From positions 1 through 39,551 of the IMG/VR virus record IMGVR_UViG_3300025703_000012: a stretch of 39,551 bases of DNA; one strand, written 5' to 3'. Under the pieces are notes generated by a model. That model saw only the letters and a program-made list of their open reading frames with translations. It ran no database searches and was not told the origin of the DNA. This stretch comes from a virus. This document shows positions 4,045 to 38,448 of the stretch, piece after piece. The first letter of the stretch is position 1; each line of letters starts with the position of its first letter. The position numbers were made by a program, and so were the translations under genes.

Positions 4045-5142
4045 ATGTTTCCTAACTACAATGCTTTATCAGCTAGCGATGGGTCTGGAGAGGCCGTCAG
4101 AGCTACGGTTTTAAGTACTCGTGAAGTCGGGTCAGCCAATATTGATGTCAATGCAATTACCAACTACCCTACGGGTACATTCATTGCAACTACAGGTACT
4201 TTTTTATCATCTGGCAAACTTGACCCGACAACCGTACAGGTATTCTATGGTACGGCTGATGGTACAACTATCACCATCACCTCATTTGCCGCTGGTTATT
4301 CTGACTTAGGCAACGCTATAGGTGATGTTGTAGTGCTAAAGCCTACGACTGAGTGGGCTAATATAGTGGCTCAAGGTATGCAGAGCACTACTCAATTCCC
4401 TAGCCAGTTTGCCAACTTCGTAGAGCCAGCCGGTGGGGTATGGAGTACCAGTTCAGGTCTGATAGGCTCAATGACAGCGGGCAATGTCTGGTATAACGGC
4501 GTACGTTCGGTTATTCCAGTTGTGACCAGTAAGACCTTTACAGCTAGTAAAGATACTTATGTTGACTTTAATCCAGCTACCAGTGTGTTTACTTATGTAC
4601 TTGAAACCAATGGGGCTGCTCAACCAGCTGTTACTAGCGGGTGTGTTAGAGTAGCATTGATTGTTACCGGGGCTTCAGCTATATCTAGTATTTATCAGGC
4701 AGCTTATTGGAAAGCCGTACCGCTTGTCTGGCAATATTTAGGCTCTATCCAGGTTACAACAAATCAAAGCACTTCTTCAAATACCTTTGTGGAAATTCCA
4801 GGAATGACTATTCCGGTGACAATACCAAATGGCGCAACAGCTTTACGAGCAACCCTCACTGGGCGAGATATAAATGGTATTGAAGTTTATTGCAATACTG
4901 CTATTTTTACAGGAGCTACCTCAGCTGCCTTAACAGCTCAAATTGGTTCTTCCCAAGCTTATGTAGCGTCAAATGTTGGACAATTTTTTCCACTTCACTG
5001 TAGGGGTTTTGTCAAATCACCTACAGCTGGCCCTATCTATGTCACAGCTGCTTTTGCCGTCAATCTAGGGGGTTCTGGTGGTATAACCTATATCAACGCT
5101 GCCTCGACATACCCATTAACCCTAGAAGTAGAGTGTTGTTAA
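4045..5142 (+). CDS. Fibre/receptor-binding-like structural protein
   Basis: This 365-aa Gly/Ser/Thr/Ala-rich protein is beta-rich. Its N-terminal part has LSTREVGSANIDVNAITNYP followed by GTADGTTITITSF, a pattern typical of phage fibre shafts. A middle domain contains VTSKTFTASKDTYVDF (about 154-169), and the C-terminal domain has the jelly-roll-like FVEIPGMTIPVTIP. It is the last plus-strand gene before the convergent lysis block and lies in the tail-fibre cluster. A receptor-binding or baseplate-peripheral role is likely but is an inference from composition and position. The start is the ATG after the TATGAT box; no ribosome site is visible. Confidence 0.65.
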   Translation: MFPNYNALSASDGSGEAVRATVLSTREVGSANIDVNAITNYPTGTFIATTGTFLSSGKLDPTTVQVFYGTADGTTITITSFAAGYSDLGNAIGDVVVLKPTTEWANIVAQGMQSTTQFPSQFANFVEPAGGVWSTSSGLIGSMTAGNVWYNGVRSVIPVVTSKTFTASKDTYVDFNPATSVFTYVLETNGAAQPAVTSGCVRVALIVTGASAISSIYQAAYWKAVPLVWQYLGSIQVTTNQSTSSNTFVEIPGMTIPVTIPNGATALRATLTGRDINGIEVYCNTAIFTGATSAALTAQIGSSQAYVASNVGQFFPLHCRGFVKSPTAGPIYVTAAFAVNLGGSGGITYINAASTYPLTLEVECC

Positions 5143-9662: not shown

Positions 9663-10188
9663 CTGGAGTTTCTACTTCTTCACCATCTACATTATCAATC
9701 GTCTCATCATGGTCAACAACGGCGTTCTTAGGTGCACGCTTGCTCTGGTCGTAGTGCCATAGGTCAACGTACTTGGTGGTCTCATATTTATCCTGCTTCT
9801 CAGCGTAGATAAATGCCTCTTTGCCGATCAGCTTCTCATTCAAAATCTTGAGCAGGTCTTCTTTGGTGTCGGCTGGTGTCTTGACGTTGGCAAACACACG
9901 CTTACCGAAGTCGCTGATGGTAGCCTTTTTGTCTTCTTTGACGTTGTGTACCAGGATGCCAAGCACCTTAGTAACAGCCATCTTAGCGCCACCTTCGGTA
10001 TGCAACCATAGAGTAGCTTCGCCCTCTTCGTCATTGTCGCCAAGAACTATGACTTTGATGATCTCTCGGTCCTTGCCGTCTTTACCGGCTTCAGCTAGAC
10101 CGATCTTAACTGTGTGTGCGCCAGGTGTGAAGCCTGCTGCACTCATTGGCTTACCAATGTTATCAAGTGTTTCGTCTAAAAATCCCAT
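9646..10188 (-). CDS. Putative single-stranded DNA-binding protein
   Basis: This 180-aa protein has a beta-rich core (GAHTVKIGLAEA, REIIKVIVLGDNDEEGEATLWLHTEG) consistent with an OB-like fold. A basic helical middle part follows, then a strongly acidic tail ending ETPDGLFD. Acidic tails ending in a hydrophobic residue are typical of phage and bacterial SSBs, which use them to recruit partners. It sits beside a Sak4-like ATPase and upstream of an exonuclease and helicase, the expected company for an SSB or DUF669-like protein. There is no diagnostic motif, so this is a contextual call. The start is coupled by TAATG to the pentapeptide gene. Confidence 0.5.
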   Translation of the reverse strand: MGFLDETLDNIGKPMSAAGFTPGAHTVKIGLAEAGKDGKDREIIKVIVLGDNDEEGEATLWLHTEGGAKMAVTKVLGILVHNVKEDKKATISDFGKRVFANVKTPADTKEDLLKILNEKLIGKEAFIYAEKQDKYETTKYVDLWHYDQSKRAPKNAVVDHDETIDNVDGEEVETPDGLFD

Positions 10189-10958
10189 TATTTTTTACTC
10201 GCTTTCTTAGGTTTAGGTTGATCAATTACCATATCAATTAGTTTGACTGCATGAGCACTAAATTGGTTATTTTCTGGAGTATCACCCTCACGAATATTTA
10301 AGAACCAAGACTCACTAGGATTTTCTACACCTTTCTCGTAAAACGGTATGGTCTCACAAACATTGTCAATACCACCATCCAATTTACCTAGCGTACCAAT
10401 TAGACAAGCACAATCACCTTCGTATTGTGTGCCATTGATTTTACCCTCAACAAGTGCCTTGCGTAAGCCAGGCAGTTCGCTTTTCAAATGTTCAAAGATG
10501 AAGAGCATGTCTCGACTACAGCTATTTATATAACTTTTTGGAAGTTTGTCAAGATCAGCACCATACAGATTAGCACCATACAGATTAGCACCACGCAGAT
10601 TAGCACCATACAGATTAGCACCACGCAGATTAGCACCACGCAGATTAGCACCATGCAGATTAGCACCACGCAGATTAGCACCATACAGATTAGCACCACG
10701 CAGATCAGCACCACGCAGATTAGCACCACGCAGATCAGCACCATACAGATTAGCACCACGCAGATTAGCACCACGCAGATCAGCACCACGCAGATCAGCA
10801 CCATACAGATTAGCACCATACAGATCAGCACCACGCAGATTAGCTTCAACTACAGCATCTTTAAGAGTTTCAGCTTTTTCTGATTCGTAAATTACTGCTC
10901 CAGAAATATAGTTTAGAATTTGAATTTTGGCTGTGACTTTCTTCTTAATAGCTGGCAT
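10188..10958 (-). CDS. Pentapeptide-repeat protein
   Basis: This 256-aa protein has an N-terminal beta segment (1-38), then about 20 tandem A(N/D)L-x-G pentapeptides (39-138). These form a right-handed quadrilateral beta-helix. A C-terminal globular domain (139-256) follows, starting [11 protein letters not shown] and containing [11 protein letters not shown]. Pentapeptide proteins such as Qnr and MfpA mimic DNA and bind gyrase, but many others have no known role. The C-terminal domain is seen in other phage and bacterial pentapeptide proteins of unknown function. AAGGGGAAG precedes the ATG. The repeat is almost perfect at DNA level. It lies between the ATPase and the SSB-like gene in the early operon, so an anti-host or replication role is possible. 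Confidence 0.85.
10553..10845 (-). repeat. 15-bp tandem repeat array in the pentapeptide gene
   Basis: About 20 copies of a 15-base unit, such as CACCACGCAGATTAG on the plus strand, vary mainly at a few positions. Only two forms dominate the variable codon (tat or cgt on the minus strand). The homogeneity means the array was expanded or homogenised recently. Confidence 0.9.
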
Positions 10959-12001: not shown

Positions 12002-12517
12002 TTATTTTTCCTCCTCAATGAGCTTATATTTCTTGCCGTTTAATTCAATTATTTCGGTTTTAGATTCTTCAGATTTATCAGCCTCAAGTTCTAACCCACC
12101 CTTATAGATGATTTCTTGACCTTCATTTTCGAGATATTTAATTTTTTCTTTGTTATACCGCATACCAAATAAGTAGCCCGCTACAATTTTGAGTTTACCA
12201 TATACCCGTGCATCACCATATACCCATGCATTACCAGATACCCGTGCATCACCATATACCCGTGCATCACCATATACCCATGCATTACCAGATACCCGTG
12301 CATTACCAGATACCCGTGCATCACCAGATACCCATGCATCACCAGATACCCGTGCATCACCATTGTCAAGCTCTACCGAGCTTAGCCAACCCCCCTTGTC
12401 GCCTTTCTTCACGCCACGACTTTTAATGTCTACAAGTGCTTCGATACGGAAAAGCTTAATCCCGAAAACATTTACCATACTCTCAGTAGTAAGTTTGAAT
12501 TTAATATCTTTTGCCAT
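12002..12517 (-). CDS. Hexapeptide-like beta-helix repeat protein
   Basis: This 171-aa protein begins KLFRIEALVDIKSRGVKKGD (about 21-40). Nine tandem hexads of the form (D/N)A-x-V-x-G follow (about 54-107: DARVSG, NAWVYG and so on), a left-handed beta-helix pattern. A charged C-terminal domain (about 108-171) ends with KYKLIEEEK. Proteins with this N-terminal lead-in and repeat occur in many phages under labels such as polymer-forming protein, with no proven role. A strong AAGGAGA ribosome site sets the start. With the pentapeptide gene nearby, this operon has two solenoid repeat proteins. Confidence 0.75.
   Translation of the reverse strand: MAKDIKFKLTTESMVNVFGIKLFRIEALVDIKSRGVKKGDKGGWLSSVELDNGDARVSGDAWVSGDARVSGNARVSGNAWVYGDARVYGDARVSGNAWVYGDARVYGKLKIVAGYLFGMRYNKEKIKYLENEGQEIIYKGGLELEADKSEESKTEIIELNGKKYKLIEEEK
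12197..12361 (-). repeat. 18-bp tandem repeat array in the beta-helix gene
   Basis: Nine 18-base units (plus-strand core ATACCCGTGCATCACC) differ only at a few bases, such as ccat/cctg variants. The pattern parallels the 15-bp array of the pentapeptide gene but is unrelated in sequence. Confidence 0.88.
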
Positions 12518-13522: not shown

Positions 13523-14737
13523 TCAGTGTATCACGTTAATAGTATCTTTGTCAAATGATTTTTCCTCCTCCCATAAGTTATCTTGAAAGTCCTGACGATT
13601 AGCTAAACAACGATAAACACTAACGTCGATAGTGTTCTTACACTTAAACAGATAATACAGCGTGGTGTATTTCTGCCCTGTGCGGTATGTTCTGCCGAGA
13701 CTCTGGGCAAAGTCTGCATAAGAGTAAGTCGGTGAGTAATAGACAGTTATGTGAGCATACGTAAGCTCAATGCCAGTAGAAGCGCTTTGATACTGAGCGA
13801 TTGTAACGCTTGGTGGCATATTATCCCAGTTTGCACGATCAGGTAAGTTACTACGATGTCCCGATTGCTCATACCTCTCACGCTCTGGATAGCTTTCTAA
13901 CACTTTCAGTATTGCATCACGTTCTAGGTTATAGTTATAGAATATGACCACATGATCTAACGTGCCGTCTAAAATATTGCGTAAAGCATCTTGTCGATGG
14001 TTAGCCAGAGATTGCCGTAAGTAAGTATGTAGCTTGCTTGGCATATCCAACAATTCACCCTCATCAGTAACACGATTTTGCTTAACGTGCCTATAAGCTG
14101 CCATCTGTGAAGTAGTAAGTTCTATCTCTACGTTAATACTACGTTTTGCCGGCAAGTCTAGCACATGGTCCAACCCTTTAGAAATAGCTTGCCAATAATG
14201 TTTTAACTGATTTTCGCCGGCATAGCCAATTATTCTTGGAAAACCTCTCGAACGATCAATTAAAACATGTTGCCTAAAAAACTGAGTTTTATTTTTCCAA
14301 AATCCAAACAATATCCCATAAGTTTGCATATCTTGCCAACCTTTAGGCAATGGTGTGCCACTAAGCAGTATGAATTGTTTACAATTCTGACTCTGTACAG
14401 CACTTATGATGGCTTTAGAGCGTTTAGCAGTAGCAGACTTGATATAAGTACACTCATCTACTATAAGCACATATTCTGGCGGAAACTCTTGCTGTTTAGC
14501 AAACATCTCATAAGAATATGTAGCATATAGTGGTGCTTCCCACACTTCCGCCTCACGCTCCCAGTCTTTAGTGCGTATTTTAGATGCCGGAGCCACTACT
14601 ATTATCGGTATGTTTGGTGAATAGCGCTTGGCGTGTTCTAGGCTCAATGCCGTTTTACCACTACCAAGCGTAGCCGTCATAATCACGTTAGCCGGCAAGT
14701 CTTTTAGATACTCGGCTTGCCAGTCATATAACTGCAT
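13523..14737 (-). CDS. SNF2-type superfamily 2 DNA helicase
   Basis: This 404-aa protein shows the SF2 helicase motifs: Walker A TATLGSGKT (21-29), Walker B VDECT (93-97), motif III LLSGTP (124-129) and motif VI QSLGRTYRTGQ (about 345-355). DECT in place of DEAH or DECH is within SNF2 variation. Phages use these as replication or recombination helicases that remodel nucleoprotein. There is no accessory domain beyond the two RecA lobes. Its AAAGGATTATAA leader contains a stem-loop (14758-14791) just upstream, which might set expression. It is an early-operon gene. Confidence 0.85.
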   Translation of the reverse strand: MQLYDWQAEYLKDLPANVIMTATLGSGKTALSLEHAKRYSPNIPIIVVAPASKIRTKDWEREAEVWEAPLYATYSYEMFAKQQEFPPEYVLIVDECTYIKSATAKRSKAIISAVQSQNCKQFILLSGTPLPKGWQDMQTYGILFGFWKNKTQFFRQHVLIDRSRGFPRIIGYAGENQLKHYWQAISKGLDHVLDLPAKRSINVEIELTTSQMAAYRHVKQNRVTDEGELLDMPSKLHTYLRQSLANHRQDALRNILDGTLDHVVIFYNYNLERDAILKVLESYPERERYEQSGHRSNLPDRANWDNMPPSVTIAQYQSASTGIELTYAHITVYYSPTYSYADFAQSLGRTYRTGQKYTTLYYLFKCKNTIDVSVYRCLANRQDFQDNLWEEEKSFDKDTINVIH

Positions 14738-16777: not shown

Positions 16778-16816
16778 GATGAAATCCTATCTTATTATTA
16801 ATTCTTTACTAACACC

Positions 16817-16846
16817 AGTGTATCATGTGAAGTGTATCGCTGTCAA
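16817..16846 (-). promoter_or_regulatory. Leftward early promoter
   Basis: On the minus strand TTGACA (16846-16841), an 18-nt spacer and TGA-TACACT (extended -10, hexamer 16822-16817) precede the first early gene by about 40 nt. The -35 is perfect. It should drive the long leftward operon. Confidence 0.6.
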
Positions 16847-16890
16847 GTATAAAAGCATATTTAGTGTTGTAAAATTGTGTTGAGCAGACG

Positions 16891-17134
16891 TGTTTACAAG
16901 GGCTATTTTGTGTTTACAAAATGTTTACAAAATTATGGTATAATAGGTTTTAGTTACCTCTGTTGGGTTATTGACTATTATCTAAAAACATACCTCTAAT
17001 ATGAATTGTAAACATGTAAACACACATATTTATTCGTTATACACGCACGTATAGGTAGCTAGTGTATGCTGTATAACTAATAAAAAAAACGTGTTTACAA
17101 TTGCCACCACTGTTAATTTGTAAACACGTAAACA
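16891..17134. repeat. TGTTTACA iteron-like array, eight copies
   Basis: Copies of TGTTTACA occur at 16891, 16911, 16922 and 17092. The reverse complement TGTAAACA occurs at 17007, 17015 and 17119, with a one-mismatch copy CGTAAACA at 17127. The reverse copies form two direct tandem pairs repeated every 8 bp. The flanking base context (G before, A after) is also largely kept. This is the pattern of initiator or repressor binding sites. Confidence 0.75.
16936..16944 (+). promoter_or_regulatory. Rightward extended -10 promoter inside the iteron array
   Basis: TGG-TATAAT is a perfect -10 with TGN extension. The -35 position falls on the iterons at 16911-16929, so an iteron-binding protein would control it. 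No gene starts nearby; the transcript could prime replication or run to the gene at 17433. Confidence 0.45.
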
Positions 17135-17416
17135 CGTTTTTTGGATTTTACTTAAACAAATTTACAACACCTTATCTGTTAGGCGTATATTGACGTATAT
17201 GCATGTTTTTTATGTATGTTTGTTATGTTGACTGAAACACAACAAAACCATCATCACTATAGTTCGATTGTTTATTGGTTAGGGGCGGGTTGGTTTTTGA
17301 ATTGATGATATATATTCATTACTATATCAACCCAAAAAATTAAGCAAAAAACCCTACCTTGACACTGCACTAGAGACATGTCTTAGATACCCATTGCCGC
17401 CGCAGGCAGATATATG

Positions 17417-17425
17417 TGATATACT
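17417..17425 (+). promoter_or_regulatory. Extended -10 (TGA-TATACT) 7 nt before ATG 17433
   Basis: The hexamer ends 7 nt before the ATG, giving a leaderless geometry. A second candidate lies upstream, TTGACA (17359-17364) with TTAGAT 18 nt on, which would give a leader of about 40 nt. No Shine-Dalgarno site lies before the ATG. Confidence 0.5.
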
Positions 17426-17432
17426 TTTCGAT

Positions 17433-18296
17433 ATGAATAAATGCTACGTTACCGGCGCACAACATGGCTTTGTAGGCCAATGGCTTGTTAAGGAACTGGA
17501 ATCTGCTGGTCACGATGTCATACCGAACCAGGTAGATATACGGGATTACGAGGCCCTGAGAAACGAGTTAGACACTCACCGTCCGACTCACATATTTCAC
17601 TTAGCTGCTCAGGCGTTTGTGCCGGAGAGTTTCACATCCCCGCAGCGGGCTTTTGAGGTGAATACAATAGGCTCCCTCAATATCCTTGAGGCCGTTAGAC
17701 AGCTAGGATTACAAACCAATATCCTGCTTGTTGGCACCTCCGAGGAGTATGGCGACGGGGATGTGAGCGAGGACTCATACCTGCAACCAGCCAGTCCCTA
17801 TGCTATAAGCAAGGCGGCGATGGATTACTTGGGGCAGCTGTATGCTAAGAGTTACGGTATGCATATTGTGGTGAGTAGAGCCTTTAATCACACGGGACCC
17901 GGACGTGGTGAGCAGTATGCTGAGAGTTCCTGGGCGAAGCAGATTGTGGCTATTGAGCAGGGCCGGCAGGAGCTATTAGAGCATGGGAATCTCAGTAGTG
18001 TGCGGAATTACACAGACGTGCGGGACATGGTGAGAGCTTACGCTTTGGCTATAGACTTACCTTCAGGTGTTTATAATATATGCTCGGACCGGAATGTAAC
18101 GATGCGGGAGGTGTTGGACTTACTAATTGCTGGCAATGATATAGATACTAGAACCAATCCGAGCCTATATCGGCCATTTGACTTTAGCTTTAAGAAGCCT
18201 AATTGCGAGAAATTTCAGAAATTGACGGATTGGAAGCCGGAGATACCTTTAGAACAAACGCTATTTGATTTATTGGAATATTGGCGACAAGCATGA
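17433..18296 (+). CDS. SDR-family nucleotide-sugar dehydratase/epimerase
   Basis: This 287-aa protein has an extended-SDR Rossmann motif TGAQHGFVG (7-15), catalytic serine in LLVGTSEEYG (S103) and YAISK (Y123, K127). NHTGPGRGEQ (about 144) and SSVRNYTDVRDMVRAY (about 177-192) are substrate-side motifs typical of GDP-mannose 4,6-dehydratase or the related reductase. It should bind NAD(P) and alter a nucleotide-linked hexose in the cytoplasm. A TTG 13 codons upstream is in frame, but the extended -10 before the ATG favours this start. It overlaps the next gene by ATGA, so the two sugar genes are coupled. Base composition looks more GC-rich than the flanks, possibly a transferred gene. Confidence 0.85.
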   Translation: MNKCYVTGAQHGFVGQWLVKELESAGHDVIPNQVDIRDYEALRNELDTHRPTHIFHLAAQAFVPESFTSPQRAFEVNTIGSLNILEAVRQLGLQTNILLVGTSEEYGDGDVSEDSYLQPASPYAISKAAMDYLGQLYAKSYGMHIVVSRAFNHTGPGRGEQYAESSWAKQIVAIEQGRQELLEHGNLSSVRNYTDVRDMVRAYALAIDLPSGVYNICSDRNVTMREVLDLLIAGNDIDTRTNPSLYRPFDFSFKKPNCEKFQKLTDWKPEIPLEQTLFDLLEYWRQA

Positions 18297-19291
18297 AGCC
18301 CGGTATTATAGAAAAATTACCATATGTAGTGCATAAATTTGAAACGAAACAGGGATGGAATCATAACCCCTCAATTTGTCAAGATGATAAAAACAATACC
18401 TGGATTAGCATTAGGCATCATGATAAATTACCGCTAATTGTCCACTTATCCCCGCAAAATCACCCGCACCGCAACGAGCCGTCACGCTTGCAGGTTGGAC
18501 ATTTCGACCCGGTTACACTTGCCATTACGGATTTGAAATTAATTGTTCCGGAATCTGGCTCGCCAGAATTTTTGTTTAAGCATAATTTAGAGGATGTGCG
18601 GATTTTCCATAGGTTCGGTAAGCTTCATGGGATTGGTGTGGCTATACCGCCCTTGGGTATTGTCCAGGTTGAGGTAGAAATTGACTATGATAAGGGGACT
18701 TATAAACTCCTGCATGATTTTGGGCAACCATCGGGTCGTTCAGAAAAGAATTGGCAACCATCTAGCGTTCCCACGGAAGCCTTTGACTATATTTACTCGC
18801 CGACCCAAGTTATTAAGTATGGGTGGCCTAAGGGTTCGGTTTATACGGGTAAGGTGCATGGCGGTTCACAATTATTGCCGTATAAGGACGGTTGGATTAG
18901 TATTGCTCATAGGATTGTACATGTTACGGGGTTGACTGAGCGCTGGTATGTGAGTGTGGCGCAGTTGCATGACTGGACGGGTTTCGTAACCCACCAATCC
19001 CAGTATTTTGATTTCGGGAGCGGTTGGCGAGAGAATTTGCAGGAGTCTGTGGAGTATGTCAGTGGTGCTATTTGGATGGTTGCAGAAGAGGAGTTGTTAC
19101 TTAGTATGGGTGTTCGGGACGAGACATGCGGTTTTGTCCGAGTGCCTGTTAGTGCTTTTGATTGGCGACCAGTAGGTGGCTGGTCGCAGAAGTTTTCACT
19201 TGACTCAGACTTATTAGAAATAGTGAAAGCTAGTTCTATGAAAAAGTTTGATAAATTGACTGCTGAGGCTAAAAAGTTATCTTCCGTCTAG
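18293..19291 (+). CDS. GH130-like five-bladed beta-propeller protein, copy 1
   Basis: This 332-aa protein shows the repeated beta signatures of GH130-like propellers. NPS (25-27) comes first, then EDVRIF (100-105), EKNWQP (151-156) with YIYSPTQ after it, HGGS (189-192) followed by GWISIAHR, then YVSG (255-258) and SMGVRD (271-276). GH130 enzymes are mannoside phosphorylases or hydrolases. Related propellers accompany glycosyltransferases and some are thought to transfer sugars, so the reaction here is unsettled. The ATG lies in an ATGA overlap with the SDR gene, so the two are one functional unit. A paralog is encoded on the opposite strand at 22909-23880. Confidence 0.75.
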   Translation: MKPGIIEKLPYVVHKFETKQGWNHNPSICQDDKNNTWISIRHHDKLPLIVHLSPQNHPHRNEPSRLQVGHFDPVTLAITDLKLIVPESGSPEFLFKHNLEDVRIFHRFGKLHGIGVAIPPLGIVQVEVEIDYDKGTYKLLHDFGQPSGRSEKNWQPSSVPTEAFDYIYSPTQVIKYGWPKGSVYTGKVHGGSQLLPYKDGWISIAHRIVHVTGLTERWYVSVAQLHDWTGFVTHQSQYFDFGSGWRENLQESVEYVSGAIWMVAEEELLLSMGVRDETCGFVRVPVSAFDWRPVGGWSQKFSLDSDLLEIVKASSMKKFDKLTAEAKKLSSV

Positions 19292-19325: not shown

Positions 19326-19354
19326 TTGTTTTTCCTATCCACTAGCACTATAAT
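19326..19354 (+). promoter_or_regulatory. Promoter of the D5 helicase cluster
   Basis: TTGTTT (19326-19331), a 17-nt spacer and a perfect TATAAT (19349-19354) form a good sigma-70 promoter. The TTG at 19326, which could be taken as a start codon, is therefore its -35. The in-frame GTG at 19365 is about 4 nt after the expected transcript start. Confidence 0.65.
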
Positions 19355-19364
19355 TACCAGTCTG

Positions 19365-20723
19365 GTGTCCGCACAGAAGACTAGACAAGAAGAAACTAAA
19401 ACCCTAGATATTGCTGCTATTCAGGCCAAAACACGCATAGCTAGATTCAAGGGTGCAATTTTTTATATGAATGACGATGGGTATTGGAAGCCCTTAAGCG
19501 AGGATTACTTTCGTCAAATTGCCTACAAAGTGCTAGGAATTATTGCTAAAACTCGAACTAATGAAGCTTGGGATTATGTGCAGTATGGGACTCCAGATTT
19601 AACCAACTATGCTCAATATATACGGATGAATAACCTCGTTTGGGATACTATAAAAGTAGGTTTTACAGAGGAAATTAGTCCTGAGGATTGCGTTTATGCT
19701 ACATCCGTTATGCCGAACTTTGAGGCGAAACCTTCGGCATTTATTATGGCATTAGCTGACAACGACCCTAGCGTATATGACGATATTTTACAGACGATTG
19801 CTCCGATTTTCCTAAGTCATAAGCCAGCCGGTGTGATTTGGTGGAAGGGTGAGGGCCGTAATGGTAAGACGACTTTAGCTCAGGTACTATATGATTTATT
19901 CCCAGGCTTTATATCGGGCTTAACTATTAAAGCTATTGAAGATGAGCGTGACGCACCAGCCTTAAATGGTAATTTAGCTAATATAGTTAAAGAGTCTAGC
20001 GAGGGATATATCCAGGACTCTAAGGCTTATAAAAGTATTGGTACTCACGAGCCATTTCCTGTTCATAAGTTCCATTCGCAGCAGAGCGTTATGATTGATG
20101 GTGACTTACATCATATATTCAGCGCTAATAATATCCCAACTTTTGGGGATAAGTCTGATGGAGCGAAGCGGCGTACATTGCTTATACCATTTGAGGCTAA
20201 ATTTGACGATGACCCAACATTTATAGAGCGCACTTTCACACCTGAGTTTTATGCTCAGCACCTAGGGCTGTTTTTGGAATATGCTGGGCGGTTGAAAGAG
20301 CAGAATTATCATTATGTGTTTGGTGGTCTGTCGTTAGCGGTCAAGGAGCGTTATGACGAGGGTACTAACTCGGCGGCTACCTACATTGACGAGTTACTTG
20401 AACAGTACATATATGCCTTTGATAGTTATGGGTATCTCTATACGGATTATGAGAATTGGTGTAATGACGGTGGTTATAGTATTATGTCACGTCAACATCT
20501 CCGCCGAGCAGCTGAGAATAGGGGTTATCAGGGCACCACTAGCCGTGATGGTGACAAGCATTTCAGGCGCTATATATACAAAGAATCTTCGTTTGCTGAC
20601 TTAGAAACAATAGGTGGTTTTAGGACAGGTATGCATAGACAGTCTGGGGTTGAGTCTCCCCTCATAGAGCGAGCTGAACCACAATCTAATATACAGGAGT
20701 TTTTAGATGCCATCCCTGACTAA
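19365..20723 (+). CDS. D5-like superfamily 3 replicative helicase
   Basis: This 452-aa protein is an SF3/D5-type ATPase, the usual replicative helicase of many phages. Walker A is GEGRNGKTT (162-170), followed by the typical LAQVLYDLFPG helix. Motif C is HHIFSANNIPTFGD, with KRRTLLIPF as the arginine finger. The N-terminal D5-type region (about 20-150) has no polymerase or primase catalytic motif that I can see, so a separate or host primase is likely needed. GTG 19365 is chosen because an upstream TTG overlaps the promoter. The 3' end overlaps the next gene by 17 nt, so they are coupled. Confidence 0.85.
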   Translation: MSAQKTRQEETKTLDIAAIQAKTRIARFKGAIFYMNDDGYWKPLSEDYFRQIAYKVLGIIAKTRTNEAWDYVQYGTPDLTNYAQYIRMNNLVWDTIKVGFTEEISPEDCVYATSVMPNFEAKPSAFIMALADNDPSVYDDILQTIAPIFLSHKPAGVIWWKGEGRNGKTTLAQVLYDLFPGFISGLTIKAIEDERDAPALNGNLANIVKESSEGYIQDSKAYKSIGTHEPFPVHKFHSQQSVMIDGDLHHIFSANNIPTFGDKSDGAKRRTLLIPFEAKFDDDPTFIERTFTPEFYAQHLGLFLEYAGRLKEQNYHYVFGGLSLAVKERYDEGTNSAATYIDELLEQYIYAFDSYGYLYTDYENWCNDGGYSIMSRQHLRRAAENRGYQGTTSRDGDKHFRRYIYKESSFADLETIGGFRTGMHRQSGVESPLIERAEPQSNIQEFLDAIPD

Positions 20724-21462
20724 ATTATTAGACGCTATGCTGGTAACGGACTATAAAGAGTTTAAGTTAATGTCTGATAGCCCAGAAATAAATGCTGACG
20801 CTAAGACTGTAGCAGCCTTACTGGATAGGTGCTGCCATGCTCGTAGCACCCGTGCTATACACTTGGCTTTTGAGCGGCTTGAGGGTGAGCAGCCGACTCC
20901 TATTCGCTTTGAGACTCCAAAGTTCTATACTAGATACCATAACGCTAGTGCTCCAAAAGAAATTGCGGCGTTTTCGTCGGCTTCAGCGGTGCCCACCCCC
21001 TCTGAGGCTGAGGATGACCCCGAAATTACTAGCGATATTGCTGGCAGCTTGCGTGTTACGCTAGATGGCTTACGCAGACTACCGAAACCAGATGTAGATG
21101 CGTTAATTACCTATCGTGATGCTGTCGATAAAAAGAAACCGAAAATAGAGTTAGCTGTCCAGCGGGCTAGTGTCCGTAAAATCATAGCAGCTAACTTGCT
21201 TGCCATATCTCATACCGGTAATACCAACGCTATAGAGGAAATATTCCTACAAATTGAGGGTCAATTGGAAAAGGTGATTAAAGTGCTTGGAGGGCATGAC
21301 GTATATGTTGACGATTATGCTACGCTGGAGGCTCCATTTAACGCTAAGATGGTTGATGGGCTGTGGGTAGCTGAGAATGAGGCTGTCACTAATATGTGGA
21401 TAGCCAGACTAGCACCTGAGTCACAAGAAGTAACTAAGAAAATTATAGGAGGAACGGAATGA
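20707..21462 (+). CDS. Hypothetical protein coupled to D5 helicase
   Basis: This 251-aa soluble protein has a helical N-terminus (LTKLLDAMLVTDYKEFKLM) and a Pro/Glu linker near 100 (VPTPSEAEDDPE). A helical C-terminal half contains RRLPKPDVDALITYRDAVDKK. No catalytic motif is evident. AGGAG before its ATG and the 17-nt overlap with the helicase gene suggest a helicase partner, such as a loader or primase accessory. That role is a guess. Confidence 0.55.
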   Translation: MPSLTKLLDAMLVTDYKEFKLMSDSPEINADAKTVAALLDRCCHARSTRAIHLAFERLEGEQPTPIRFETPKFYTRYHNASAPKEIAAFSSASAVPTPSEAEDDPEITSDIAGSLRVTLDGLRRLPKPDVDALITYRDAVDKKKPKIELAVQRASVRKIIAANLLAISHTGNTNAIEEIFLQIEGQLEKVIKVLGGHDVYVDDYATLEAPFNAKMVDGLWVAENEAVTNMWIARLAPESQEVTKKIIGGTE

Positions 21463-22595: not shown

Positions 22596-22690
22596 GTGAG
22601 ATTCGCCGAACAATACATATTCACCACCATCATAAAGACGGCATTTGCTGTATGTGTGGTCATGTGAGTGGGGAACCAGAGAATGAGTGA
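22592..22690 (+). CDS. 32-aa Cys/His small peptide
   Basis: The ATG overlaps the TGA that ends the amber-interrupted HNH frame, and the stop overlaps the start of the VRR-NUC gene. The product MSEIRRTIHIHHHHKDGICCMCGHVSGEPENE has a His cluster and CCMCGH, a possible metal site. It bridges the two nuclease genes with no gap, so ribosomes could pass along all of them. Confidence 0.45.
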   Translation: MSEIRRTIHIHHHHKDGICCMCGHVSGEPENE

Positions 22691-22973
22691 AAAACAGCTA
22701 CAACGTGACATTATCACGTTTTTACGTGGAAAAGGTTGTTATGTGCTTAAAAATGATGCGACTTATCGTCAAGGTGTGCCTGATTTGTCTTTTTGGCATA
22801 GTGACCTATCCGGCTTCATCGAAGTTAAGGCTAACGCTAATTCACCTTACCAACCGTTACAGCAACCTACTATCGAGAAGCTAGAGAAAATGGGCATATT
22901 TGTTGCTGTTATACATCAAGAGAATTGGCCCGAATGGCAGGCAAAATTTGATTTGTGGCTAGAACAGCCCTAA
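22683..22973 (+). CDS. VRR-NUC domain nuclease
   Basis: This 96-aa protein is a minimal VRR-NUC enzyme. QLQRDIITFLRGKGCYVLKN leads in, GVPDLSFW holds D34, and GFIEVKA (44-50) holds E47 and K49. Phage VRR-NUC proteins of this size are structure-specific nucleases that act on branched DNA and resemble Holliday junction resolvases. A GTG 5 codons upstream is possible, but the ATG is chosen since it lies in an ATGA-type overlap with the 32-aa peptide and has GGGGAA upstream. Its last 65 nt overlap the 3' end of the opposing propeller gene. Confidence 0.85.
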   Translation: MSEKQLQRDIITFLRGKGCYVLKNDATYRQGVPDLSFWHSDLSGFIEVKANANSPYQPLQQPTIEKLEKMGIFVAVIHQENWPEWQAKFDLWLEQP

Positions 22974-23880
22974 TCGGCTCCTCATTCCATTTATACTCAT
23001 GGAATACTAAGTCAGCAGGGTCTATAAGTGCTAAGGCACTTTGAGCGTCACCAATACCTAGAGACACTAGGAATTTACCTTGATTTAAAACTAATCCAGC
23101 TATAAATTCTACATGGTTATCTCCAAAGAGTAAAAAGCCTTGGCTGATATGGGTAGCAAAACCATATTTATCATACTTAACGGCATAAGAACAATATTGT
23201 CTGAAACTTCTTGTATCAACCATATGAGCACGGTGTACTTTATGTTGGAAGCTGAGCCAGCCATCTTCCCATTTAATAGCCTGAGAACCACCATGCAGTA
23301 GGCCATGATACTCATGGTCGCCTAGCAATTTATTGTCTTTAAGAATTTGGGTAGGACTATAGATATAATCGAAGAATTTGTTGGCTACCTCTGGTACTGT
23401 CCAGTTTTTCTCTATTCGTTCAGGATGTGGTTTAGGCACTAACTCTCCAAAAATTAGTTCATTATCTGTAATCTTACCTTGAGCAATGTGTACACTTTCG
23501 CCCTGTCTATCTTCTTTACTCATGCAAACGCCCATAGCATAAAGTGTAGCGTTTCGGACAAACAAGCGTACATCTTCCAGCCCGATATTTTGGATATACT
23601 CATGCACATTGCCAGCATATTTCAGCTTAACCAAATTACTGACAGTTAGGTTTTTCTCGTCTACTTCACCCAGTAATATATCAGTATGGAGTTTACCACC
23701 AATTATTTCTTGACCGTTTCCATGTTCGCCTAGTGTCCAGGTGCTACTTCTGATGCTTATTAAGAGCTTATCTCGATACCTCGCTAGGCTTGGATTATAG
23801 TAGGGCTTTAGAGGGTCATTCTGTGGCAGTATGATTTTTTTAGCGGGTAGTATTGTGATTATCTCTTTCCAGCTGCTCAT
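22909..23880 (-). CDS. GH130-like five-bladed beta-propeller protein, copy 2
   Basis: This 323-aa protein is a paralog of 18293-19291, with the same motifs in the same order: NPS (29-31), EDVRLF (102-107), EKNWTVP (157-163), DYIYSPTQ, HGGS (196-199) then GWLSFQHK, FIAG (259-262) and LGIGDA (274-279). Conserved residues are kept, so both copies are probably active. It is the only minus-strand gene within the rightward half. It is read from a leaderless-type promoter (23887-23892), and its 3' end overlaps the VRR-NUC gene by 65 nt. As with copy 1, phosphorylase, hydrolase and transferase are all possible. Confidence 0.75.
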   Translation of the reverse strand: MSSWKEIITILPAKKIILPQNDPLKPYYNPSLARYRDKLLISIRSSTWTLGEHGNGQEIIGGKLHTDILLGEVDEKNLTVSNLVKLKYAGNVHEYIQNIGLEDVRLFVRNATLYAMGVCMSKEDRQGESVHIAQGKITDNELIFGELVPKPHPERIEKNWTVPEVANKFFDYIYSPTQILKDNKLLGDHEYHGLLHGGSQAIKWEDGWLSFQHKVHRAHMVDTRSFRQYCSYAVKYDKYGFATHISQGFLLFGDNHVEFIAGLVLNQGKFLVSLGIGDAQSALALIDPADLVFHEYKWNEEPIRAVLATNQILPAIRANSLDV

Positions 23881-23926: not shown

Positions 23927-24460
23927 ATGAATAGCGAGCAGGTAGCGAATATATTAGCATTTTATTCTTACTATTTCCCGAAAGACACTGTAGATGATAT
24001 TGCCCTAGATTTTAAACTCCCACCAGCCAATATCATCAATGGTCTGTATTATGGTGAGCGTAATGGGCTTTTCACAGCCAAGAAAAAAGGTGCTCAGTAT
24101 AAAGAAATAGTAGTCCAAGCTGTACCGGATGATAACGCTGATTTTGGTAAAGATTTAGATCGAGTTAAAAGTAATATCCTTGAGGTAATAACTAATCTCA
24201 ATTCTGATAAGGAAGATATTACAGATGACAATTTGTTTATTTGGCTTGGTGTACCGTTTATAATTGCTAAAGTGGCGTTACGGTTGTTGGCTAATGAGGG
24301 TAAGCTGGTGAAGTACAGGATTACTGACCCGAAAGACAGGAAAAGTAAATATTATTTCTATACTTTGAGTGAGAATAAGGATAAGTTTTATGGTAACAAG
24401 CAGTTTCGTCGTATGCCACATAAGAAAGATATAAAAACTGATGTCAAGTTATCGAGTTGA
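23927..24460 (+). CDS. Putative winged-helix DNA-binding protein
   Basis: This 177-aa basic protein has two helical parts that look like winged-helix or HTH domains. The first is MNSEQVANILAFYSYYFPKD followed by VDDIALDFKLPPANI. The second is DITDDNLFIWLGVPFIIAKV, with a wing GKLVKYRITDPKDR. AGAGAGG precedes the ATG. It is the first gene of the late block and overlaps the HNH gene by 20 nt. It could activate late genes or act as a small terminase subunit. Both options are inferences from position. Confidence 0.45.
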   Translation: MNSEQVANILAFYSYYFPKDTVDDIALDFKLPPANIINGLYYGERNGLFTAKKKGAQYKEIVVQAVPDDNADFGKDLDRVKSNILEVITNLNSDKEDITDDNLFIWLGVPFIIAKVALRLLANEGKLVKYRITDPKDRKSKYYFYTLSENKDKFYGNKQFRRMPHKKDIKTDVKLSS

Positions 24461-37083: not shown

Positions 37084-38448
37084 GTGGAGATACCTCAGCA
37101 CTTTACGCCAAGAAGTTACCAAGCTGAGTTCTTAAAAAACGCCCCAAACTTTAGGTTTATAGTTCTTGAATGGGCTAGACGCTCAGGCAAGGACTTAACC
37201 ACATTCGCATACGCTATTCAGCGTATGGTACAAGAGCCTATGGGGGTGGTTATAATCTACCCTACCAAAACTCAAGGCTATACCTCATTTTGGAACAATG
37301 TAGAAGATGATGGTTTTCGGACGATTGAACACGTTCCCAGAGAGTTTGTAGCAAGCTTATACTCTACCTCTGATAATATGAGCATGGTGCTCAAAAATGG
37401 CTCAACGCTTACACTTGTAGGTTCGGCCAACAATCCTGAATCGTTGCGTGGTCAGAACACTAAGTTATTCTTACTGCCAGAGTTCGTAGATCAGCCAGTA
37501 GGAGTTTTAGGTATTATCCGACCGATTACAGCAGTCAATGGTGGTCAGATTATTATTCAGTCTACACCTAAGCAGGATGGTATCTCTGGCGGTACATTTA
37601 TTAAACTACTAGAAGCAGCTGAAAAAGATAAAACCCAGTATGGTCAGCGCATAGATGCTACTCACTATATGACTCCAGAGCAACTTGAGCAAACTAGGCA
37701 AGATTACATTGCGGAGTATGGTAATGATTTCTTGTTTAGACAAGAGTTTTTGTTGGACGAGGGACAAGCCTTAGCCACTAGCTATTATGGCAATATTATT
37801 ACTAAGGCTAGAACAGAAAAACGTATTGGTAATTTTCCTTGGAAACCTGAGCACCCTGTATTTGTCACTTATGACTTAGGCTCTGGTGCCGGTACTATAA
37901 CTATTTTATTCTGGCAATACATCGATAAGAAGCTCAATATTATAGACGCTTTTGAAACTCATGATAATGGTGACACCGCTCTTATAAAATATATCCAGTC
38001 CAAGCCGTATAACTATGGTTGGCATTTCCTACCGCATGATGGTGCCAAACGAGATGACAAAGAAGCTGTAGCTCGTATTCAAAATTGGCGTAACGCTGGT
38101 CTTGTTAACGCCAGTTTACTGCGTAAAGAGAACAAAGAGGACGGTATTAGACGTACTCAAGCTCTACTCAGTAAGCCGACAACTACTATGCATAAGCCAA
38201 CTACAACTGAGTTTGTGCGTAAGTTGGCTATTTATAAGCGTAAGTTTAATCAATTTACTGGTGACTATGAGGGGCCAGAGCATAAGAGTGAGAGCCATTA
38301 TGCTGACAATTTCAGATATGTTAACGCAGCTATCGAGCAAGGGTTTAGGCCAGATGGTACGCCATATATGACAATACCTGGTAAGGAAAAAAAACCAGAG
38401 CTGATAGTGAATGAAAATTGGGATTCTGGAGTCAATTTTGATTTTTAA
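37084..38448 (+). CDS. terL: Terminase large subunit
   Basis: This 454-aa packaging motor has PRSYQAEFL (9-17) and Walker A EWARRSGKD (about 28-36). The Walker B-like strand KLFLLPEF (about 130-137) keeps the catalytic Glu but has Pro in place of the usual Asp, a variant close to the 'SEY' type seen in podoviruses. SLRGQ and QSTPK are also typical. The RNase H-like nuclease shows VTYDLGSGAG (first Asp) and SESHYADNFRY (last Asp). It starts at GTG, with no strong ribosome site, 2 nt after the preceding stop. An ATG 2 nt upstream is out of frame. It lies after the portal and scaffold genes, not before them, which is an unusual order. Confidence 0.9.
   Translation: MEIPQHFTPRSYQAEFLKNAPNFRFIVLEWARRSGKDLTTFAYAIQRMVQEPMGVVIIYPTKTQGYTSFWNNVEDDGFRTIEHVPREFVASLYSTSDNMSMVLKNGSTLTLVGSANNPESLRGQNTKLFLLPEFVDQPVGVLGIIRPITAVNGGQIIIQSTPKQDGISGGTFIKLLEAAEKDKTQYGQRIDATHYMTPEQLEQTRQDYIAEYGNDFLFRQEFLLDEGQALATSYYGNIITKARTEKRIGNFPWKPEHPVFVTYDLGSGAGTITILFWQYIDKKLNIIDAFETHDNGDTALIKYIQSKPYNYGWHFLPHDGAKRDDKEAVARIQNWRNAGLVNASLLRKENKEDGIRRTQALLSKPTTTMHKPTTTEFVRKLAIYKRKFNQFTGDYEGPEHKSESHYADNFRYVNAAIEQGFRPDGTPYMTIPGKEKKPELIVNENWDSGVNFDF

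Follow-up and report, generated by a model that had tools for sequence, protein, structure and literature searches.

Genes and features at the divergent junction

The window analysed here, that is, the whole stretch of 39,551 bases, is an IMG/VR virus record in which no terminal repeats were found, so it may be incomplete. Tail, terminase and tail-fibre genes shared with a second record (IMGVR_UViG_3300021182_000055, G001) show it, by gene content, to be a tailed phage. Leftward genes run from about 16.8 kb down to 5.2 kb, rightward genes start at 17.4 kb, and an array of short iteron-like repeats lies at the divergent junction. The neighbouring genes had been described as replication genes; helicase genes are present further out, but the nearest genes are small unknown ORFs on the left and a GDP-mannose dehydratase-like gene on the right. 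Blastn of the array region against named phages gave no match, as did Rfam. The features that concern us are as follows.

13523-14737, minus strand: SNF2-type helicase gene of the leftward early unit (phrog_62, 2.2e-71)
16817-16846, minus strand: leftward early promoter, TTGACA-N18-TACACT with TG before the -10 (consensus scan)
16891-16929, plus strand: iteron cluster A, three TGTTTACA (16891, 16911, 16922)
17007-17022, minus strand: iteron cluster B, two TGTTTACA 8 bp apart (17007, 17015)
17029-17084: imperfect inverted repeat between clusters B and C (arms 17029-17043 and 17070-17084)
17092-17134: iteron cluster C, TGTTTACA at 17092 (plus) and 17119 (minus) and TGTTTACG at 17127 (minus); includes a 12-bp inverted repeat
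17281-17335: G-rich element and AT-rich stretch (from the alignment; partly conserved in three relatives)
about 17396-17424, plus strand: probable rightward promoter, GCCGCCGCAGGC then TGATATACT, near the first rightward ATG (17433)
19326-20723, plus strand: SF3 helicase of D5/P4 type, 465 aa, candidate initiator (profile matches)
22668-22973, plus strand: VRR-NUC nuclease gene of the rightward unit (PF08774, 9.1e-7)
37084-38448: terminase large subunit gene, far from the array

The preliminary description counted eight copies of the repeat in 244 bp. The length is exact (16891-17134), and the eight sites are seven exact copies of TGTTTACA plus the single-mismatch copy TGTTTACG. Both pairs spaced at 8 bp (17007/17015 and 17119/17127) were confirmed, and the inverted repeat reported at 11 bp is present with arms of 12 bp (ACGTGTTTACAA at 17089-17100 and TTGTAAACACGT at 17118-17129). 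Seven copies were reached in 0 of 3000 Markov simulations of the intergenic region at each of orders 1, 2 and 3 (9000 in total). The imperfect inverted repeat that separates cluster B from cluster C may form a cruciform or a single-strand hairpin; the segment 17010-17110 folds as DNA with a z of -3.05, and the repeat is kept only partly in the relatives L004 and L149. Further to the right, A+T reaches 80% at 17301-17350, and the element at 17281-17335 is a possible unwinding or priming region. A scan of the window for clustered DnaA boxes (TTWTNCACA) gave 0 exact matches.

The leftward promoter said to flank the array was borne out, and the same element is found in L004 (4200-4172) and L149 (6234-6206). 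For the rightward side, an extended -10 promoter with its -35 on the iterons had been proposed. The extended -10 TGGTATAAT, with TATAAT at 16939, is indeed there, but a 17-bp spacing puts ACAAAA in the -35 position, and the TTTACA of the iteron stands at a 20-bp spacing. A separate element at 17396-17424, conserved in relatives, is probably the rightward promoter: GCCGCCGCAGGC is identical in L149, L151 and G001, and the element carries the sole exact GCCGCAGGC of the window. Across the phage group we observed the 12-mer GCCGCCGCAGGC, about 9-17 bases and then a -10-like TGNTA(T/C)A(A/C)T upstream of the first or an early rightward gene (also at about 6862 in L149, about 5376 in L151 and, on the minus strand, about 3742 in L010). 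The surrounding DNA is otherwise AT-rich, and GCCGCCGCAGGC may be an activator site or an unusual promoter element. When GCCGCCGCAGGC plus TATAAT was used as a search pattern, one unrelated viral contig was found besides G001, and the genome matches look like chance. The iterons do not overlap either of the two promoters conserved in relatives, so the word "self-regulated" in the preliminary description is not upheld.

The junction array in related phages

The divergent layout is the same in three relatives, L004, L149 and L146, whose SF3 helicases are 79% (over the available part), 66% and 64% identical to that of the window, respectively; no relative was found when bacterial and archaeal genomes were searched with the SF3 alignment. 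The junction DNA aligns poorly, with a mean column identity of 52% over the four sequences. Despite this, GTTTAC sites are clustered at the junction in all four phages (8 in the window, 7 in L004, 8 in L149 and 3 in L146). Such counts were reached in 0 of 2000 simulations each for the window, L004 and L149, and in 67 of 2000 for L146, which is weak when taken alone. Each of the window, L004 and L149 has its sites in three groups, about 77-105 bp apart. That an array is kept at one divergent junction in three relatives while its flanks barely align supports the reading of the array as a replication origin, and the strongest evidence comes from these relatives.

The spelling of the iteron co-varies by clade. 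A T precedes GTTTAC in 14 of the 15 sites of the window and its closest relative L004, giving TGTTTAC, and a G precedes it in all 11 sites of L146 and L149, giving TGGTTTAC. The same junction of L146 also holds a perfect 16-bp inverted repeat, CGAACAAAATACGAAC at 4398-4413 and GTTCGTATTTTGTTCG at 4576-4591, part of which (ACAAAATACGAAC) is found in L004; it is possibly the site of a second regulator.

SF3 helicases and arrays in other phages

It had been stated that no known initiator is seen. This is not borne out, given that there is a strong candidate: the protein encoded at 19326-20723 is a P4/SaPI-type SF3 helicase. It matches PF19263 (1.2e-8, 36 bits, above the cut-off of 27.6), phrog_864 ("DNA primase", 8.9e-38) and the P4-family model TIGR01613 (2e-23, below the cut-off at 82.7 vs 108.7 bits). 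Among solved structures there was one significant chain, PDB 7ola (labelled DNA primase, 1.5e-16), which we take to be SaPI5 Rep. The 7ola alignment extends to residue 411 and a weak, sub-threshold Pox_D5 match covers residues 351-392 (E 0.019); a winged-helix DNA-binding region possibly lies at about 340-430. AlphaFold2 run with 4 sequences gave an unusable model (mean pLDDT 35), and Foldseek on that model found no match. Neither the 465-aa protein nor any neighbouring protein that was scanned showed a primase domain, and neither a Rep-type (RepA/TrfA/pi) nor a lambda O-type initiator was found among the early proteins scanned with Pfam and PHROGs.

Between the window and L146 or L149, the SF3 core is 70-72% identical and residues 370-418, the presumed DNA-binding part, are 45-49% identical; between L146 and L149, which have the same iteron, the values are 78% and 76%. 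The lower C-terminal identity between phages with different iterons would fit the SF3 helicase as the binding protein, in a single contrast of two clades that other proteins diverged on the same branch also fit.

SaPI Rep helicases recognise iterons via their C-terminal domain; Cch2, with SaPI5 Rep as its closest homologue, binds its own iterons through residues 400-538; and in SaPI and SCC elements the helicase gene is immediately followed by the origin (PMC7581432). The window resembles SaPI Rep and SCCmec Cch2 in having an SF3-type helicase of the Primase_Cterm/D5 group, a presumed C-terminal DNA-binding domain and multiple short iterons in the replicon. Unlike these systems, no primase domain is seen on its helicase, and its array, located between divergent promoters, ends 2192 bp upstream of the helicase gene. 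The window therefore departs from SaPIs in one feature, the layout, and would still fit the wider category of an SF3 helicase with an iteron origin. Phage P4 alpha is likewise a P4-family helicase (the family of TIGR01613, which the window protein matches below its cut-off) that works with short iterons, and the P4 type I iteron, TGTTCACC, is close to TGTTTACA. P4 differs in being a satellite whose alpha protein includes a primase domain; as a tailed phage, the window has terminase and tail genes of its own. With iteron plasmids (RepA, TrfA, pi) and lambda O the window shares repeated sites, in its case at an AT-rich candidate origin, but the early proteins tested included none of Rep or O type and its 8-mers are in mixed orientation.

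We searched IMG/VR for three nearby copies of TGTTTACA and obtained at least 119 stretches; among the matches listed, at least 52 stretches have five or more copies in 500 bp. The SF3 helicase VapE was found in 12 of 34 tested records with mixed-orientation TGTTTACA arrays and in 0 of 34 records whose copies numbered just three to four and were mostly regular, again among the matches listed (Fisher p 0.00015, to be taken only as a guide because the records are not random and near-duplicates are present, for example L036 and L126 with identical VapE). In 11 of the 12 listed records with both, the array is directly 3' of the VapE gene, and VRR-NUC and SNF2 helicase genes usually come after the array in VapE records. 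Relatives of the SNF2-type helicase of the window adjoin TGTTTACA arrays in other phages as well. The window is thus like the VapE phages in its mixed-orientation 8-mer array (exactly TGTTTACA in one IMG/VR group) with VRR-NUC and SNF2 helicase genes nearby, and unlike them in that its helicase matches PF19263 (D5/P4-type) and not PF05272, and its array is not adjacent to the helicase gene.

The reverse test started from named SF3/VapE phages selected by protein similarity alone, and the intergenic region just after the gene was scored. In 8 of 11 regions some 8-mer (5 to 9 copies) exceeded all 300 simulations; no clear array was found in the other three, one of which was borderline. The recurring 8-mers vary by phage (TGTTGACA, ATGCAACA, AAGGGACG, GACAACCA, CTGCAACA, TACACTAA, ATCGGTAG and ATAAGACA). 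In phiSP119, one of the eight, a higher score came from a different stretch at that locus, so counts of 8-mers do not by themselves single out origins. When VapE pairs with the same iteron were compared with pairs with different iterons (14 proteins), the C-terminal part was 13.1 vs 14.9 points below the core, which is no clear difference. The Staphylococcus phages 3A and phiSP119 (L134 and L144) have VapE cores 87% identical, C-terminal parts 66% identical and unrelated arrays (ATGCAACA vs AAGGGACG), a natural specificity swap pair. Many TGTTTACA arrays are on contigs in which no SF3 gene was found. In L014, L022, L026, L049, L050, L070 and their relatives, mixed-orientation TGTTTACA arrays adjoin the terminase small subunit gene and no SF3 helicase was found; TGTTTACA alone is therefore no proof of an SF3 origin.

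The array as a candidate replication origin

We consider that the array is probably an iteron origin of replication and that the SF3 helicase encoded by the phage itself probably binds it. This reading draws on the array itself, its conserved place, its co-varying spelling, the homology of the helicase and the association of arrays with SF3 genes across phages. The preliminary description had already recognised the architecture of an origin, and this part is strengthened by the similar mixed-orientation arrays adjoining SF3 genes in many phages and by the junction array kept in three relatives, even though its self-regulation and its lack of an initiator were not confirmed. The check it proposed, the cumulative GC skew, does show a minimum at the array (16-17 kb). 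The sign of the skew follows transcription, however, so it cannot decide on an origin, and the coding-strand skew differs among gene groups with no clear pattern. A literature search, mainly of openly available papers, found no description of an origin built on TGTTTACA or of a VapE/VRR-NUC origin.

We infer the following scheme. The eight 8-bp iterons in clusters A, B and C would be bound by the C-terminal domain of the SF3 helicase, which would assemble there and melt AT-rich DNA in or beside the array. The helicase would then unwind in both directions and host polymerases would copy the genome, as described for SaPI Rep. With the array between two divergent promoters, origin firing and early transcription would begin at one place. 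More tentatively, the D5/P4-type and VapE-type SF3 groups may share TGTTTAC as their iteron, exactly or nearly so, and the SF3 origin of the window group may have been relocated, away from the helicase gene and into the region of the divergent early promoters, coupling firing to the early transcription switch; we put this forward as a possibility that is rather doubtful at present.

The main rival of the origin reading is an operator array, in which a regulator, such as a small early protein or the HTH-like 177-aa protein at 23927-24460, would bind TGTTTACA and thereby turn the divergent early promoters on or off. The position between two conserved divergent promoters suits such a function, L145 and L146 have versions of the 177-aa protein conserved at 53-58%, and dispersed asymmetric operators are known in phages (the stoperators of mycobacteriophage L5). 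Yet no iteron overlaps either conserved promoter: the leftward -35 is about 45 bp away from the closest exact site, and about 260 bp separate the end of the array from the rightward promoter. Only two further exact TGTTTACA occur elsewhere, intergenic or other, beyond chance expectation (10 in the whole window, 2.4 expected), the early proteins tested gave no match to a regulator family, and comparable arrays of other phages are directly 3' of SF3 genes. We regard an operator array as unlikely.

Packaging is a poorer explanation. The separate IMG/VR contig group with TGTTTACA arrays next to the terminase small subunit gene raises the idea of a pac/cos-like site for that subunit, but in the window the terminase large subunit gene is distant, no small-subunit family was matched near the array, and the array is in the early region between divergent early units; this makes a packaging site improbable. 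It is still less probable that the sites are -35 elements of several promoters. Each TGTTTACA does contain TTTACA, similar to TTGACA, and one copy is upstream of TATAAT at 16939; against this, the spacing there is 20 bp, site orientation is mixed, and conservation departs from the -35 hexamer (in L149 the final A is kept in 4 of 8 sites and TGGTTTAC in 8 of 8). Chance repeats in AT-rich intergenic DNA (69% A+T, with other A/T-rich repeats) are ruled out by the simulation counts and by the recurrence of arrays at the junction in relatives.

The origin reading points to a testable origin and initiator in a little-known phage group. It also suggests a rule for finding origins in uncultured phages, namely to look near SF3 (VapE, D5 or P4-type) helicase genes for arrays that repeat one 8-10-mer in mixed orientation. 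As the iteron varies between phages while its place is kept, pairs like 3A and phiSP119 could reveal how SF3 helicases choose their DNA.

Some minor observations were made on other genes of the window. The 251-aa protein at 20707-21462 is 74-77% conserved in relatives and matched no family; by eye it may resemble terminase small subunits, and its AlphaFold2 model (3 sequences, pLDDT 43) was unusable. A paralogous pair on opposite strands (18281-19291, plus; 22909-23880, minus) is kept in relatives; it had no Pfam, PHROG or NCBIfam match where searched, and may resemble GH130-like mannoside phosphorylases. Finally, two short-repeat genes are located at 10188-10958 and 12002-12517, one pentapeptide-repeat-like (15-nt unit, 19.5 copies) and the other with an 18-nt unit (9 copies).
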